64,000 nucleotides of DNA from Longimicrobiales bacterium (GTDB lineage Bacteria; Gemmatimonadota; Gemmatimonadetes; Longimicrobiales; Gaopeijiaceae), in the NCBI GenBank assembly GCA_951813395.1, contig OX638356.1, positions 2,492,501 to 2,556,500 on the forward strand, written 5' to 3'. The position numbers and the translations under genes were made by a program. Of the stretch, positions 19,744 through 31,848 are shown one piece after another (the stretch's first letter is position 1; each line of letters starts with the position of its first letter). The notes under the pieces are model-generated. The model saw only the letters and a program-made list of their open reading frames with translations. It did no database searches and was not told the origin of the DNA.

Positions 19744-20196
19744 ATGATTCTCAGTGACTTCTTCGCCCGCGACCGGGTCAGCCTCGATCTGACCGGGGAG
19801 ACGCGGGACGATGTTCTGGGCGCGCTCGTTTCCCTGCTGACGCTCGATGAGCGCTCGGAGGGGACCCTGTCGCGGACGCTGCGCAGGCGTGAAAGCCTGG
19901 GTTCGACCGGGATCGGTCGCGGGATCGCCATTCCCCACTGTCGCTCACTGATGGTGCGTCGGCTGCGCGTGGCCTACGGACGGCACCGCGGTGGCGTCGA
20001 ATTCCACGCCATCGACAACCGGCCCGTGCATCATTTCTTCCTGATCGTCGCGCCACCGGTGGAGGTGTCCGTTCAGTATCTTCCGGTCCTCGGGAAGCTG
20101 GCGCAGTTCGCGAAGCACCGGGACGTGCCCGGGAAACTGACCGGGTTGCGCTCCGCGGACGAGTTCTTCCGGCTGCTGGAATCGAAGGGCGTCTGA
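19744..20196 (+). CDS. PTS EIIA (PtsN/fructose-type) domain protein
   Basis: The 150-residue protein is a stand-alone EIIA of the nitrogen/fructose type. The ATG at 19744 starts exactly where the domain begins (MILSDFFARDRVSLDL); the GTG at 19681 would add 21 unlike residues. The phosphorylated histidine is expected at His65 in GIGRGIAIPHCRS. With no EIIB or EIIC near it, a regulatory job is likely, with phosphate coming from HPr and EI encoded at 26.8-28.8 kb. It is the only plus-strand gene between 17.5 and 50.8 kb. Confidence 0.85.
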   Translation: MILSDFFARDRVSLDLTGETRDDVLGALVSLLTLDERSEGTLSRTLRRRESLGSTGIGRGIAIPHCRSLMVRRLRVAYGRHRGGVEFHAIDNRPVHHFFLIVAPPVEVSVQYLPVLGKLAQFAKHRDVPGKLTGLRSADEFFRLLESKGV

Positions 20197-24791: not shown

Positions 24792-25301
24792 TCAGTGGTC
24801 GAACCGTCCGAAATCTTCGGGGCGGAGCCTGCGCAGGTGCTCCTCGAGAGCTTCGCCGCTAATGCGCGATTCCCCGTTCTCCTCACCGTCGTCGTCCCCG
24901 ACGGGCATGGCCTCGGGTACGGCCGCGAGAAGGGCGTCATCCGCGAAAATGCGCGCCTCCGCGCGCAGGGCGATGGCGATCGAATCCGAGGGCCGCGCGT
25001 CCACGGATATCAGGTCGCCGTCCCGGTCGATGATCAGCTCGGCGAAATAGGTGCTGTCCTCGACGCGCGTGATCAGGACCCGTTGCAGCGTGCCCCCGAG
25101 TCCGCCCAGGACCGAGACGAGAAGATCGTGGGTCAAGGGTCTCTGGAAGGACACGCCCCCCAGTTGCATGGCGATCGCGCTCGCTTCTCCCGGCCCGATC
25201 CAGATCGGCAGCACACGATCGGTCCCGACTTCCCTCAGAATGACAACCGGCGTATTCGAAGTGCGATCAAACGCGAGGCTCTGCACATTGACCTCAATCA
25301 C
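24792..25301 (-). CDS. DUF151 bifunctional-nuclease family protein
   Basis: The 169-residue protein starts at a GTG at 25301, four bases after a GAGGAGG ribosome site. The overlapping ATG is in another frame and meets TGA at once. The family core runs from MIEVNVQSLAFD through VLPIWIGPGEASAIA and RPLTHDLL to SVDARPSDSIAIALRA. DUF151 proteins have reported nuclease activity in plants and some bacteria, but their bacterial role is unclear. An acidic C-terminal tail follows (DDDGEENGE). Confidence 0.9.
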   Translation of the reverse strand: MIEVNVQSLAFDRTSNTPVVILREVGTDRVLPIWIGPGEASAIAMQLGGVSFQRPLTHDLLVSVLGGLGGTLQRVLITRVEDSTYFAELIIDRDGDLISVDARPSDSIAIALRAEARIFADDALLAAVPEAMPVGDDDGEENGESRISGEALEEHLRRLRPEDFGRFDH

Positions 25302-25464
25302 ATGACCTCCTCGCCTGGCGGCTTTCTTCGGCGGCCGGGGACAACAGGGGGCTAACAAGTTGTATCCCGCACCCGTCCCGCGCCACCCGTCCGATGCGTG
25401 AAGCGAAGCGGCCCGGCCCGGATGCATCGGCGCTCGAATGCCGGGGGGATTTGTCCACGGACCG

Positions 25465-26652
25465 CTATAGTGCCAGCGCCGTCCGCAACTCGCCGATCCT
25501 GTCGGTGCGCTCCCAGGTGAACAGGCTGATGTCGCGTTCTCCCGCCTTCGCGGCGGCCGGCGCACGGCCGAAGTGCCCGTACGCCGCGGTTGGACCGAAG
25601 ACCGGTCCCCTCAAGCCGAGGTCGCGGATGATCCGTGTGGGCCGGAAGTCGAACACGTCCTGAACGGCGGCCGACAGAGCGCGATCCGGCACGCACCCGG
25701 TGCCGAACGATTCCACCCACACCTGCACCGGCTCCGGCTGGCCGATCGCGTATGCCAGGCGCACTTCGCACCTCGAGGCGGCCCCGGCAGCAACCAGGTT
25801 CTTGGCGGCCCACCTGGCCGCGTAGGCGCCCGACCGGTCCACCTTGGTCGCGTCCTTGCCGGAAAACGAGCCGCCGCCGTGCCGGCCCATCCCTCCGTAG
25901 GTATCGACGATGATCTTGCGTCCGGTAAGCCCCGCATCCGCTTCGGGCCCTCCCGATACGAAGCTGCCGCTCGGGTTCACATGGATCTTCGCGCTATCGA
26001 CGGAAAAATGGCGCGCAGGCAGGACCGGGAGGATGACCTTGCGAATGACCTCGGCGCGGATGTCGTCCTGGGACAAGGTGCGGCCCTTATGCGTTGCCGC
26101 GTGCTGCGTGCTGACGACGACGGTGGAGATCCGGACGGGCTCGACGCCATTGTACTCGTAGGTGACCTGCGACTTGCCGTCGGGACCCAGCCAGGGGATC
26201 TCGCCCGACTTGCGCGCCTGCGCCAGGCGCTTGACCAGCGCGTGAGCAGCGGAAATCGGCGCAGGCATCAGCTCCGGAGTATCGGCGCAGGCAAACCCGA
26301 ACATCATGCCCTGGTCGCCTGCCCCGCCGAGGTCGACGCCCGCCGCGATCTCCGGCGACTGGGAGGACAGAGCCAGATCGCAACGGGTGCCGTCCAGACC
26401 GTACATGGGCCTGGTGTAGCCCGCGTCACGCATGACGCGCCGGACAAGCTCCGGGACGTCGGGGTGTTGTCCGTCCAACGTGATCTCTCCCGCCACCAGG
26501 ACCCTGTCCGCCGCGACCAGCGTTTCGCAGGCGACGCGGCCTTGTGGGTCCCTGGCCAGGATGGCGTCGACGACGGCGTCCGATATCTGGTCGGCAATCT
26601 TGTCGGGGTGCCCTTCCGTAACGGATTCGGATGTGAAAAGACTCGGGCTCAA
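25465..26652 (-). CDS. metK: S-adenosylmethionine synthase
   Basis: The enzyme makes SAM from methionine and ATP. It has 395 residues from a TTG at 26652, placed so that the family start [17 protein letters not shown] follows at once. An ATG at 26742 would add about 30 unlike residues and is less likely. The motifs [10 protein letters not shown] and [12 protein letters not shown] that bind ATP and phosphate are intact. It follows ptsI on the same strand after 124 bases, in which I could not see a SAM riboswitch. Confidence 0.93.
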
Positions 26653-26776
26653 GGTGTCGGCTTCTTCTGGCAGAAGTGAACTGTTCGGCGGGACCGTGCC
26701 CGCGCCATGACAAACGCACCGGACGGTCAGGGGTACTGCCACGGCACAGCGCCGCCGGGACTGTGACGGAAGAAGA

Positions 26777-28531
26777 TTATGGGGGACTCGTCAAGTCCCC
26801 CAGCGATTCCCTGAGTCCCTGCCTCACGTTGCAGCCTGCCGGCGCACTCAGGGCCGCGGAGGCCGCGGCCCGCACCGCGCTCATCCGACACCGGCGGATC
26901 AGTCTCTTGATCTCGAGCAGGGAGGGCCAAGCCACGGAGAGACCCTCCACACCGAGACCCAGAAGCAGCAGGGCACCGAGTGGCCGTGCGGCCATCTCCC
27001 CGCAGGCACTCACCTCCACACCCGAGCGCCGGCCGGCATCCGCTACCATCGCGATCTGCCGCAATACGGCCGGATGCAACTCATCGAAGAGATGGGCCAG
27101 GCGGGTGCTCGTCCGGTCGACCGCCAGCGTGTACTGGACCAGATCATTGGTTCCGATGGAAAGGAAGTCCGCTTGCTCGGCCAGTTGCCGGGCCTGCAGG
27201 GCGGCCGCGGGAGTTTCGATCATCGCGCCCAGTTCGACCTGCTCGGAGAAGGGCACGCCCTCCCGGCGCAACTGATCCCTGGCCGTGCGAAGGAGCCTTC
27301 GTACCGAAACGATCTCTTCTGCGGTGTTGACGAGCGGCACCATGATCCGCACGTCGCCATGAGCCGAGGCCCGCAGGATCGCGCGCAATTGTGTGAGAAA
27401 CAGCGCGGTCTCGTCCGGGAAGACGCGGACTCCCCGCCTGCCCAGGAGCGGGTTTTCCTCGGCCGGAGCGCGCAGAAAGACGGGGAACTTGTCCCCACCC
27501 AGGTCAAAGGTGCGAATCAACACGGGATGATCCGCAAAAGTCTCCGCCACACTCCGATACGCGCGGTACTGCTCCTCTTCCTCCGGGGCCCTGTTGCGGC
27601 CCACGACCAGAAACTCGGTGCGGAAGAGCCCGACCCCGTCGGCGCCGTGCTCGAGTGCCCGGGCGGCCTCTCCGGGCAGATCGAGATTCGCCCGGAGCAC
27701 AACCCTGGTACGGTCGAGCGTCACCGCATCCTCACGCGCAATCGCCGCAATCTCGCGACTCCATCCCAGGATGGCGGAGCGACGCAACTCGAAGCGCTCC
27801 GCCTCTCGCGCGTCCGGATCGATTACGACCCTGCCGGAGCGTCCGTCCACCACCATCACCTGCCCGTCCTTCGCCCGCGAGGAAACCCCATTCAGTCCCG
27901 CTACGGCCGGGATCTGCAGGGACCGCGCAAGGATCGCCCAGTGGGACGTGCGCGTACCCTCGTCGGTCGCCAGCGCCACCACCCGATCGGTATCCAGCGT
28001 CGCCACGAAGCTGGGGGTGAGGTCTCGGGCCACGGCCACGACCCCGGACGCGGGACCCAGCTCCCACGGCTCGGGCAGCGCCAGCAGGCGGCTCAGAACC
28101 CGCAGCTTGAGGTCCGCAAGATCGTTCAGCCTGTCCAGCACCATGGGGTGGGAGGTCCGCGACCAGCGTTCCTTGAGTTCCAGCATCCGCCAGTCGAAGG
28201 CACGTGCCGCCGCAAGGTGATTCTCGGCGATGTAGCCCTCGGTTCCCTCGACGACGTCGGGATCGTCGAGCATCAGGATCTGGGGATCGAATATCCTCGC
28301 CTCGACGAGTCCGAGCCGGGCCTCGGTCTCGCTCTTGAGTGTTTCAAGCTGGCGGCGCGCATCGTTCAGCGCCGCGCGAAAACGCTCAAGTTCGCGATCC
28401 ACCGAGCGGGCCCGTACGACGGTGTGCGCAACCTCGGGGATGCTCCACACGATCCGCCGCACCGTCCCCTTGGCGATCCCTTCGGCGGCGGGAAACCCCT
28501 CGAGAACGGCAGGGGCCGCAGGTTCACTCAT
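26777..28531 (-). CDS. ptsI: PTS enzyme I (phosphoenolpyruvate-protein phosphotransferase)
   Basis: The 584-residue enzyme takes phosphate from PEP and passes it to HPr. The active histidine is His197 in [13 protein letters not shown]. The PEP-binding barrel carries [24 protein letters not shown] and a late CGEMA. The ATG at 28531 overlaps the ptsH stop by eight bases (ATGAGTGA). The longer frame upstream lies inside ptsH and is ignored. It belongs to the hpf-hprK-EIIA-ptsH-ptsI cluster. Confidence 0.95.
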
Positions 28532-28790
28532 CGAACCCGCCACGCACGAGATTCGCCAACGCCTCCACCGCTTCCTCGGCGTCATCCCCATCGGCCGTGA
28601 TCGTCAGCGAACTGCCCTTCTCGGCGGCGAGCATCAGAACGCCCATGATGCTCTTGCCGTTGACGCGCATTTCGTTCCTGGTCACGAGAATCGACGACGA
28701 AAAGCCTCCTGCAAGCTTCACGAAATCGGCGCACGGCCTCGCGTGCATGCCGAGCCGGTTCGGCACCTCGACGTCGACGGAGCAGGCCAC
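28524..28790 (-). CDS. ptsH: PTS phosphocarrier protein HPr
   Basis: This is an 88-residue HPr. The phosphorylatable His16 lies in LGMHARPC and the regulatory serine is Ser47 in NGKSIMGV, the site for HPr kinase. Both being present, beside an hprK gene, suggests the serine switch is in use. It follows the mannose-type EIIA gene by three bases and overlaps ptsI. Confidence 0.96.
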   Translation of the reverse strand: MACSVDVEVPNRLGMHARPCADFVKLAGGFSSSILVTRNEMRVNGKSIMGVLMLAAEKGSSLTITADGDDAEEAVEALANLVRGGFDE

Positions 28791-28793
28791 GGC

Positions 28794-29279
28794 TCAGAGC
28801 AGCTGCGGACGCGGCCGGTTGCCCGCGATCGCAACCTGTCCCTTGACTGCAAGGCGCGGGACCAGTTCGTCGAAATCAAGCCTGCGGTTGAACACGAAAT
28901 CCAGCAGCATCGGCAGGTTCACCCCCGTGATCACGGGAACCTCCGGCCGTTCCCGGGTCACGATGAGTGCCGCCAGATGGCACCCGCCGCTCGGCAGATC
29001 GGTGAACAGCAGGTTGCGACGACCGCGCAGTTCGCTCACCGCGCGCTCGCACAGTTCCTGCCTGTCCTCGCCACCGTGCGACACGCCCACCAGCGCGTCA
29101 TCGGTGACACCGGCAATCTGGCGAACGGCGGCCACCAGGCCTTCGGCAAGTCCTCCATGGGCCAGCACCACGCCGCGCGCCGGCGCTGGCGACATCCGTC
29201 CTTCATCGGAGGAGGCGGCGCCGGTCGCCTCCAACCGGCTCCGAGCCACCGGGGGCCTGGGGCCTCCGAGGTCACTCAT
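28794..29279 (-). CDS. PTS mannose/fructose-type EIIA (EIIA-Man) protein
   Basis: The 161-residue protein carries an EIIA-Man domain with the active histidine in VVLAHGGLAEG (His41 from this start). The ATG at 29279 overlaps the hprK stop by eight bases in the same ATGAGTGA form seen at ptsH/ptsI. Met29, inside the frame, is a less likely alternative that would trim a weakly conserved start. No matching IIB, IIC or IID gene is in the window, so a signalling rather than sugar-import job is likely. Confidence 0.85.
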   Translation of the reverse strand: MSDLGGPRPPVARSRLEATGAASSDEGRMSPAPARGVVLAHGGLAEGLVAAVRQIAGVTDDALVGVSHGGEDRQELCERAVSELRGRRNLLFTDLPSGGCHLAALIVTRERPEVPVITGVNLPMLLDFVFNRRLDFDELVPRLAVKGQVAIAGNRPRPQLL

Positions 29280-30231
29280 AGTCTTCGATCAATGAATCAC
29301 GACGGTTCAGCGCCTGGCGCAATCCGTCGTCGAACCGGGTGGGGACATCCACGCCCGAGTAGGCCAGGAGCTGGTTCATCGCGATCACCTCGCTGATGGC
29401 GGCCAGGTTCTTGCCCGGGTTGAGCGGGATGGTCACGCGCGGGATCTCGACTCCGAGGATGCTCGTCATCTCGCGCTCGAGACCCGTCCGATCGTACTCT
29501 CGCGCATCGTCCCAGTTCTGCAGATCGACGATGACCTCGACCCGCTTCCTCTGACGGGTGGCCCTCGTACCGAACATCGAGGCGACATCGATGATGCCGA
29601 CGCCGCGGATCTCCATGTGGAAGCCCTGGAGTTCATGCCCCTTGCCCATCAGCACGTCGTTCCCCCGCCTGGAAACGAATACGAGATCGTCGGCGACCAG
29701 GCGATGTCCCCGGGCCACCAGGCCCAGCACGCATTCCGACTTGCCGATCCCGCTGGGACCGGTGAAGAGCAGGCCGATTCCAAAAACGTCGGCCAGCGAG
29801 CCGTGTACGGTCGTGGTGGGAGCCAGCACATCCTCGAGATAGGGCTTCAACACCCTGTAGAAGTCCCTGGTGGCAAGACCCGTGCGAAAAACCGGCACCG
29901 GGGCGCGGGCCGCGGCCGACAGGAAGCTCCCGGGAACGTCCAGGCTGCGGGTGACGAATACGGCCGGCACTTCGCGCGCAAAGACCGCCGTGAGACGCGC
30001 CGTCGCCTCTTGCGGGTCCAGCGTCGCCAGAAAGCTCATCTCGGTCTCGCCGAAGACAAGCGCCCGGCCATCGGGAAAACGCGCCGTGTACCCCGCCAGC
30101 GCAAGGCCCGGACTGGAGACGTCAGGGGTGCCGATGCGGCCGTCCAGCGACACCTCGGGGGTGAGCAGTTCCAGTTCGAGCGCCACCTCCCTCGCCGTGA
30201 GGAGGTCACGGACGGTAATCGACGACGTCAC
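29272..30231 (-). CDS. hprK: HPr kinase/phosphorylase
   Basis: At 319 residues, this enzyme phosphorylates and dephosphorylates HPr on its serine. The N-terminal domain is followed by the kinase domain with His144 (VHGS), Walker A GPSGIGKS (158-165), the Asp181-Asp182 pair and a late EIRGVGIID segment. It begins the tight set with EIIA-Man, ptsH and ptsI. Outside Firmicutes such genes usually belong to regulatory PTS systems. Confidence 0.95.
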   Translation of the reverse strand: MTSSITVRDLLTAREVALELELLTPEVSLDGRIGTPDVSSPGLALAGYTARFPDGRALVFGETEMSFLATLDPQEATARLTAVFAREVPAVFVTRSLDVPGSFLSAAARAPVPVFRTGLATRDFYRVLKPYLEDVLAPTTTVHGSLADVFGIGLLFTGPSGIGKSECVLGLVARGHRLVADDLVFVSRRGNDVLMGKGHELQGFHMEIRGVGIIDVASMFGTRATRQRKRVEVIVDLQNWDDAREYDRTGLEREMTSILGVEIPRVTIPLNPGKNLAAISEVIAMNQLLAYSGVDVPTRFDDGLRQALNRRDSLIEDYE

Positions 30232-30285
30232 GGGCGGTCGACCCGCCGGCCGGTGAGGGATGCGCGCGGCTTCACCGCACGCGTC

Positions 30286-30603
30286 TCAGCTCTGCACGCC
30301 CGATGGCGTCTGACGAAAGTCCTTCCGTCGCGACCGGTCGCGCTTGAGAATTCGCTTGACATGGTCATCCAGCTCATCCAGGGCCACCCGAAAGTCCGGC
30401 CCTTCACCACGGGCCACGACCGTCTGTCGGCGCTGCCGCGACACGATGGCCTCGACGGTGCGCGAACGACCCTCCTGCCGAAAAACGAAACTGACGTCCA
30501 TCACGGCAGGGTCGAAGCGGGGCCAGCGCTCCGCGAGCATCTCCGCGCGGTTCCGCGAGCCGAGACTGACTTCACATCTGTGTGCGGTGATCCGTGTCGC
30601 CAT
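30286..30603 (-). CDS. hpf: Ribosome hibernation-promoting factor / RaiA family, short form
   Basis: The 105-residue protein matches the short HPF/YfiA fold. Signs include VSFVFRQEGRSRTVEAIV and a late DFRVALDELDDHVKRILKR, whose pattern matches the helix that contacts 16S rRNA. It lacks the C-terminal dimerisation domain of long HPF. It lies 54 bases upstream of hprK on the same strand, the order often seen in proteobacterial rpoN-hpf-pts clusters. No rpoN is present here. The 117 bases between it and the glycosyltransferase hold no gene. Confidence 0.85.
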   Translation of the reverse strand: MATRITAHRCEVSLGSRNRAEMLAERWPRFDPAVMDVSFVFRQEGRSRTVEAIVSRQRRQTVVARGEGPDFRVALDELDDHVKRILKRDRSRRKDFRQTPSGVQS

Positions 30604-30720
30604 GAGAGTGATCTCCCGAGCCTGAGGGAACGGTGTGCCGCCGGAGTGTCCCCGGCCAGGCCGGGCGGCGACGCTTCAACAGGGTCCAAGTTAGCAAAAA
30701 GCGCAGCGGATACCCCGCGC

Positions 30721-31848
30721 TCATCGGTGCCTCCTCGCTTCCGCGACCAGACGACGCAGGAGATCCTCGAACGCGGTGGCGACAGCCTCCCAGGTGTATT
30801 GCCGGGTCATCCGCCGTGCGGCCACACCCATGCGGTCCCGCGTCGACGGGTCCATGACGCGGGCCAGGGCCGCCGCCAACGCCTCCACATCGCCATGGGG
30901 CACGAGGACCCCGGTTTCGCCGTCACGCACCGTTTCGCGCAGTCCCGGAGAGTTGGACGCCACCGTGGCGGTCCCGCATGCGGAAGCTTCGATGCTCGCG
31001 ATTCCCCACCCTTCCTTGGGGGAGGTCAGCGCGTGCACCCAGGACCTGGACAACAGCTCGCGCTTTTCCTTGTCCGGCACGAAGCCCGCGAAGCGCACAC
31101 GATCCCCGATTCCGAGGCCGCGCACCGTGCGCTCGAGCGCGTCACGTGCGTCTCCCCTCCCCGCAACGACCATCCTGACGTCCATGCCCCGGTCACGCAG
31201 CCGCGCGACAGCCTGCAACACCAGGTCGACCCGCTTGTATCGCTTCAGCCGGCCCAGAAACACCACCGTGGGGTCCGGAAAGCGCTCCGCCGCGGGACCA
31301 AGCCCGTCGAGATCCACTCCATTGCGGATTACGGAAATGCTGTCCGGTTCGAGTCCCCGGCGGACAAGATCGTCTCGCGTGCTGTCCGAGACGGCAACGC
31401 AGTCGATACCGCGATAGACCGCGGGGATGATGCGTTCGAACAGCCAGGTGGCGCTCGCCAGAGCGGGGTTGGCCTCGCGAAAGGCCGTGGCGCCGAAGAG
31501 GTGATGTACCAACAGCAGCCGTGCCGGCGATTCGACCCAGCGGGTGGACAGCATCGGGACCTTGTTGAGATCCTCGACGACGACGTCGAAGCGCTCTTCG
31601 GCCAAACGGCGACCATACCCCAGAGGCCCCGCGATATTGAAGGTGTAGCGTCCGCCCGCCCGCAGTACCCGGATCCCGTCGACCTCCAGCTCTGGCCGGG
31701 CCCCTCTCCAGCCGGAGCAAAGCAGCGTGACCCGATGACCTCTCGCGGCCAGTCGGCCGAAGACCTGGTGGAGATGTTCCTCGGCGCCCCCGGCGTTGGG
31801 GTTGTGGCGGTCCTGCCAGTTAACCACCAGAACCCGCAGGGGATTCAC
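30721..31848 (-). CDS. GT4-family glycosyltransferase
   Basis: The 375-residue enzyme starts at the GTG at 31848, overlapping the nusB stop (GTGA). The GT-B fold is seen in the N-terminal VNWQDRHNPNAGGAEEH and the C-terminal donor site (VVFLGRLKRYKRVDLV, then SPKEGWGIASIEASACG). It probably transfers a sugar to a surface polysaccharide or lipid at the inner membrane. Donor and acceptor cannot be inferred. Confidence 0.88.
   Translation of the reverse strand: MNPLRVLVVNWQDRHNPNAGGAEEHLHQVFGRLAARGHRVTLLCSGWRGARPELEVDGIRVLRAGGRYTFNIAGPLGYGRRLAEERFDVVVEDLNKVPMLSTRWVESPARLLLVHHLFGATAFREANPALASATWLFERIIPAVYRGIDCVAVSDSTRDDLVRRGLEPDSISVIRNGVDLDGLGPAAERFPDPTVVFLGRLKRYKRVDLVLQAVARLRDRGMDVRMVVAGRGDARDALERTVRGLGIGDRVRFAGFVPDKEKRELLSRSWVHALTSPKEGWGIASIEASACGTATVASNSPGLRETVRDGETGVLVPHGDVEALAAALARVMDPSTRDRMGVAARRMTRQYTWEAVATAFEDLLRRLVAEARRHR

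Follow-up and report, generated by a model that had tools for sequence, protein, structure and literature searches.

The 64,000-nucleotide window analyzed here (positions 2492501 to 2556500 of a Longimicrobiales assembly consisting of a single contig of 4,091,820 bases, 97.9% complete) carries a cluster of phosphoenolpyruvate (PEP)-dependent phosphotransferase system (PTS) genes without a permease. This cluster is quite likely a regulatory PTS that arose by permease deletion from a complete mannose-family PTS operon, and the window system is probably a transport PTS reduced to a metabolic signaling relay. The five genes lie on the minus strand in the order hpf, hprK, EIIA-Man, HPr, and EI, bounded by a family 4 glycosyltransferase (GT4) gene and metK. 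The initial annotation described this tight arrangement with overlaps, and Pfam searches on all five genes, together with the sequence, agree with it; ATGAGTGA occurs at both overlaps, between the end of hprK and the start of EIIA-Man and between the end of HPr and the start of EI, as had been noted.

The first gene of the cluster, hpf-like (30286 to 30603), encodes a 105-amino-acid S30AE protein with a weak match to PF02482 (27.1 bits against a cut-off of 23.7) and a score under the cut-off of TIGR00741 (22.6 against 40.9), and its position is kept in relatives. hprK (29272 to 30231) encodes a 319-amino-acid HPr kinase/phosphorylase with N- and C-terminal domains (PF02603 and PF07475), the Walker A motif GPSGIGKSE, and a TIGR00679 score of 321.5 (cut-off, 240), which, with an HPr carrying the target serine, are the features of the bifunctional enzyme. 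The orphan EIIA-Man gene (28794 to 29279) encodes 161 amino acids, matches PF03610 (39.3 bits; cut-off, 21.4) and IIA-Man chains in the PDB, and has its phosphoacceptor at His41 by alignment. HPr (28524 to 28790; 88 amino acids; PF00381 and, above the cut-off, TIGR01003) begins with GTG and carries both His16 and Ser47, as first reported, with Ser47 placed by alignment within VNGKSIMG. EI (ptsI; 26777 to 28531), whose ATG overlaps the HPr stop and whose start at 28531 is preferred over the open reading frame opening at 28591, contains PF05524, PF00391, and PF02896, the motifs TSHW and CGEM, and a match to TIGR01417 above the cut-off. The PtsN-like EIIA (19744 to 20196, plus strand; PF00359, 82 bits), which the initial annotation had placed at 19.7 kb, lies 7 kb from the relay cluster on the opposite strand, with a likely start at 19744 and His65 as the aligned phosphoacceptor. 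EI, HPr, and EIIA with intact phosphoacceptor histidines are thus all present, as in a permease-less regulatory PTS.

The missing permease genes can be traced at the same site in relatives. The comparison covers 40 stretches of at most 20 kb, nearly all from the same family, and 80 named loci located through the neighboring GT4 gene; the latter come from Gemmatimonadota metagenome bins, several labeled Longimicrobiales, and bin prefixes such as RHO, SB, COS, and APA may point to reef sponges. The loci share the flanks RibAB-RibH-NusB-GT4 and MetK-BFN-RecO-SelB-(PtsN)-Dus to the limits of the contigs. In L088, the 1.9 kb separating EIIA-Man from HPr encodes IIB, IIC, and IID by Pfam, and in the fetched loci IIB-IIC-IID sit exactly between EIIA-Man and HPr, the spot where the window has 3 nucleotides (28791 to 28793) between the EIIA-Man stop and the HPr start and relatives hold about 1.9 kb. 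The full mannose-family operons of other Gemmatimonadota (L088, L090, and others) have the same gene order and flanks with IIB-IIC-IID added. The gap, with an EIID gene in it, is also present in L105 (genome G006), which belongs to another family of the same order; therefore, the full operon predates the window's family. Comparison of the loci shows the class-wide operon to be hpf-hprK-IIA-IIB-IIC-IID-HPr-EI; the window genus lost IIB-IIC-IID. It was from this operon that the permease genes were deleted, which the first reading overlooked.

The locus occurs in a graded series of states, from the full operon through no permease (the window), no EIIA-Man, and HPr-EI only to nothing. Both flanks could be read in 63 loci. 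Of these, 34 carry the complete operon (hpf undetected in 5), 12 lack only IIBCD, which is the window's state, and 7 lack both IIBCD and EIIA-Man; one retains hpf, HPr, and EI, one retains hpf alone, and in 8 everything is gone. The last are empty or hold stubs, and five of them have merely 84 to 240 bases from GT4 to metK. The stubs, all between GT4 and metK, comprise 84 N-terminal HprK residues (L153:6868-7122), the same N-terminal HprK part in two pieces (L156:11264-11436), and a 72-residue C-terminal EI piece (L159:11136-11351). Of the named loci, 61 of 80 enter the state count; the other 19 have no readable in-order GT4-MetK pair (contig ends or rearrangement), L090 and L094, read on the other strand, were left out of the 61-locus count, and L127, with hpf present and no MetK near, is also outside. 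An unrooted tree of four flanking genes, built by a quick method (63 rows and 1,293 columns; L103, which repeats L143, omitted), groups the 20 loci of the window clade, none of which has IIBCD, under a single starred branch. On this tree, IIBCD requires at least 3 changes, EIIA-Man at least 6, HprK at least 4, and HPr-EI at least 3. The direction is taken as loss, because the full set occurs in other families of the class. Two further irregularities were seen: the one-contig genome G072 (L091/L176 and L092) has its cluster split between 2.30 Mb (hpf-hprK-EIIA-IIBCD) and 3.33 Mb (HPr-EI-metK), and in L114 (11662 to 12619) hprK is in two overlapping pieces, reflecting a frameshift or an assembly error.

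Four families were searched in one set of 220 Gemmatimonadota genomes with a completeness of 90% or more (17 in the window genus, the window's own included). EIID is found in 180 of the 220 genomes and in none of the 17, EIIA-man in 187 and 10, the HprK C-terminal domain in 200 and 15, and EIIA_2 in 212 and 16, respectively. Ten genomes have EIIA-Man and no EIID, every one in the window genus, which is the only such lineage among the 220; this count compares two family searches, with absentees deduced from the complement and not all printed. The reverse, EIID without an EIIA-man match, is seen in three genomes (G120, G124, and G133), and where both families are listed on one contig they lie about 2 kb or less apart. 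Of 81 family genomes searched for HPr, 64 have it, including 21 of 22 in the window genus; it is absent from g4 (0/8 genomes), g6 (0/1), g8 (0/3), and g11 (0/2).

In the assembly that contains the window, genome-wide HMM searches found no match to PTS_EIIC (PF02378), EIID (PF03613), or EII-Sor (PF03609); IIB (PF03830), EIIC-GAT (PF03611), and EII-GUT (PF03608) were not searched. The trio IIB, IIC, and IID that defines a mannose-family sugar transporter is absent at the locus, and EIID and EII-Sor are absent genome-wide. The earlier statement that no IIB, IIC, or IID is seen thus extends to the whole genome for IIC and IID, with IIB itself outside that search, and the check for a permease operon elsewhere, run for IIC and IID, returned none. 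The genome has a single EIIA-man match and two EIIA_2 matches, namely, the PtsN-like protein and a fusion protein at 3.78 Mb. RapZ (PF03668), a partner in proteobacterial clusters, has no match in the genome.

Since a PTS relay is present without a permease, a signaling role is likely, and this part of the initial annotation stands. In the proposed relay, PEP would phosphorylate EI, which would hand the phosphate to His16 of HPr, and HPr would pass it to His65 of PtsN and His41 of the orphan EIIA-Man. HprK, with ATP, would phosphorylate Ser47 of HPr and thereby throttle the flow. With no sugar draining phosphate, the phosphorylation state of the two EIIA proteins may report PEP/pyruvate and the energy state to protein targets, with PtsN as the core output and EIIA-Man as a second, dispensable one. 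PtsN is assigned the core role because it is the sole stand-alone EIIA after EIIA-Man loss and is lost together with HPr-EI. It lies between SelB and Dus in 31 of 31 loci with HPr-EI (30 distinct, as L068 and L111 are the same record) and in 0 of 8 relay-less loci in which SelB and Dus are visible, in four of which these two genes are almost adjacent. In L118, another locus that has lost the relay, the 3.9 kb past SelB contains no PtsN, and Dus is not visible there. All eight HPr-positive family genomes without EIIA-Man and EIID (G015, G064, G095, G149, G156, G185, G212, and G219) have an EIIA_2 match with an E value of 1e-20 or better. From these gene contents, the minimal retained unit is EI-HPr-PtsN, usually plus HprK.

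Several observations weigh against this interpretation. EIIA-Man has been lost repeatedly in and near the window clade; therefore, its role is not essential and the gene is dispensable. In G138 and G159, EIIA-Man, HprK, and EIID occur without an EIIA_2 match; the association of PtsN is therefore with the permease-less relay and not with every PTS. Independent events behind the co-loss of PtsN are few: the tree has 3 losses. Finally, G210 has EIIA_2 matches and no HPr match, for which an assembly gap is possible.

Every aligned orphan EIIA-Man retains the active-site histidine and the conserved aspartate in the TDLPSG loop. The ratio of nonsynonymous to synonymous substitution rates (dN/dS) of EIIA-Man is 0.11 to 0.29 in 8 permease-less pairs and 0.12 to 0.24 in 5 full-operon pairs (a sixth has no usable dS; species are shared among pairs, which are not independent). 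The orphan protein is therefore under purifying selection, constrained about as strongly as that encoded with a permease, and relaxed selection is not seen in dN/dS. Tentatively, EIIA-Man may have been re-purposed after permease loss, its phosphohistidine being kept by purifying selection because the protein now binds and controls a metabolic enzyme or transporter. If so, a subunit of a transporter would be on its way to becoming a dedicated regulator, and relatives on either side of the step would serve as natural controls.

The second EIIA_2 match belongs to a 709-amino-acid, single-frame protein (genome positions 3778953 to 3781082, plus strand; L003:40-2169) with AA_permease_2 (APC), PTS_EIIA_2, and TrkA_C domains, all above the cut-off, and its EIIA_2 part retains a histidine at the usual place (GVVLPHLH). 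Nothing relevant on permease-EIIA-TrkA fusions was found among the literature matches listed. The intact frame, the three domains, and the histidine would suit a further output, phosphorylated by HPr and gated by the relay, but several relay-less genomes of the family retain one weak EIIA_2 match (E values of 1e-7 to 1e-11) that may be the same fusion, in which case the domain works without the relay, and we consider such an output rather unlikely.

Less likely still is that the relay lost its function with the permease and is drifting away. In nearby lineages, EIIA-Man disappears first, HprK next, and finally the rest, and hprK or EI stubs persist in three species, as expected of decay. However, the active-site residues are intact, dN/dS is about 0.07 to 0.29 for EIIA-Man, HPr, HprK, and EI among permease-less species, and, within the genus, 21 of 22 genomes retain HPr and 16 of 17 retain EIIA_2, which makes a dead remnant improbable.

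The initial annotation also suggested that the relay possibly reads nitrogen state and could be tied to ribosome hibernation, governed through the cotranscribed hpf. In its favor, hpf is first in the tight cluster, holds its position across the family, and is mostly gone where the whole operon has been excised (L153, L156, L159, L170, L171, L175, L177, and L178). Both parts fare poorly against the remaining evidence. The PTS-Ntr (PtsP-PtsO-PtsN) is characterized by an EI with an N-terminal GAF domain, whereas Pfam detects no GAF domain in the window EI, which scores 343 bits against the PtsP model NF008283 (cut-off, 583); PtsN scores 58.8 against the nitrogen-regulatory model TIGR01419 (cut-off, 138.7). 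In family f10, from the other class of the phylum, L188 and L190 have the order rpoN-hpf-hprK-HPr-EI, without EIIA-Man or a permease, and L189 has hprK-HPr-EI. The hpf linkage is thus an inherited neighborhood from an old cluster, since these outgroup genomes already show it, and hpf holds its place with or without the permease and is still present in L118, where the entire relay is gone. A combined nitrogen and hibernation role is therefore improbable; neither the reading of nitrogen state, which lacks its usual GAF input, nor control of hibernation, for which gene order is the only argument, is supported. Given the f10 order, the EIIA-Man-IIBCD block behaves as a cassette, flanked by hprK and HPr of an older cluster, that may have been either gained by the window's class or lost by f10.

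That the relay still energizes transport or a kinase through a permease or DhaK encoded elsewhere is largely refuted and highly improbable, because, although EIIA-Man shares its fold with DhaM and the own-genome search left out the few rarer EIIC families (EIIC-GAT and EII-GUT), the genome lacks PTS_EIIC, EIID, EII-Sor, and Dak1 (PF02733). The identity of EIIA-Man as DhaM was rejected on the same absence of Dak1, the DhaK partner; the EIIA-man family also matches in Haloferax.

We infer the phosphate relay from PEP to both EIIA proteins because the Brucella precedent works without a permease and the Geobacteraceae set is similar. The incomplete PTS of Brucella melitensis comprises EINtr, NPr, EIIA-Ntr, an EIIA-Man-like protein, and HprK, has no permease, and is a working relay in vitro, and its EIIA-Man binds SucA (PMC2937029). 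The window shares with it EI, HPr, two EIIA proteins, HprK, the lack of a permease, and the clustering of hprK, EIIA-Man, and HPr/NPr. In Brucella, EI carries a GAF domain and is encoded elsewhere, and the cluster includes a two-component system, whereas the window has a plain ptsI inside the operon, hpf, and a permease deletion traceable in close relatives. The signaling PTS set of Geobacteraceae is called vestigial, with a full set, including IIBCD, in Pelobacter carbinolicus (PMC3543383). The two cases are alike in having one group without IIBCD and a relative with IIBCD between IIA and HPr; there, one IIBCD genome is set against a group, whereas here 63 loci include intermediate steps and stubs, with HprK kept. 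Comas et al. 2008 describe a regulatory EI-R phosphoryl-transfer chain and an rpoN-ptsK-ptsI-ptsO-ptsN cluster (PMC2405797), which resemble the present case in the GAF-less EI without PTS transporters, the ancient rpoN cluster, and lineage-specific IIA-Man and HprK losses. The part of that study consulted covers Proteobacteria and some other phyla, with no Gemmatimonadota seen in it. Literature on the Gemmatimonadota PTS, as far as its accessible text goes, yielded no treatment of such a locus, and none was found joining Gemmatimonadota, sponge, symbiont, and phosphotransferase. A permease-less regulatory PTS of the Brucella or Geobacter kind is thus already known and is newly resolved in Gemmatimonadota.

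Whether regulatory PTSs are transporter remnants or separate inventions is usually debated from distant genomes. Here, a single genomic site displays the steps from transporter to signaling, stubs included, and shows that EI, HPr, PtsN, and, in most cases, HprK survive. That PtsN is lost along with HPr-EI is a direct, testable pointer to the relay's main output.

No Rfam match to a riboswitch or known RNA was found at positions 26500 to 31000, covering the EI-metK gap and the operon, with E values up to 1. No sigma-70-like promoter was found at 25300 to 31000, a negative result of little weight in this phylum. A pattern scan gave a weak terminator-like hairpin upstream of hpf (30706 to 30718, minus strand), one of 4 in the region against 2.2 expected. 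It also gave a GC-rich 10-bp hairpin followed by TAATCTTCTTCCGTCACAGT at the end of EI before metK (26780 to 26802, minus strand); the same pattern gave no equivalent in L111 to L128, and the hairpin is retained in the three nearest relatives, L108, L109, and L110.

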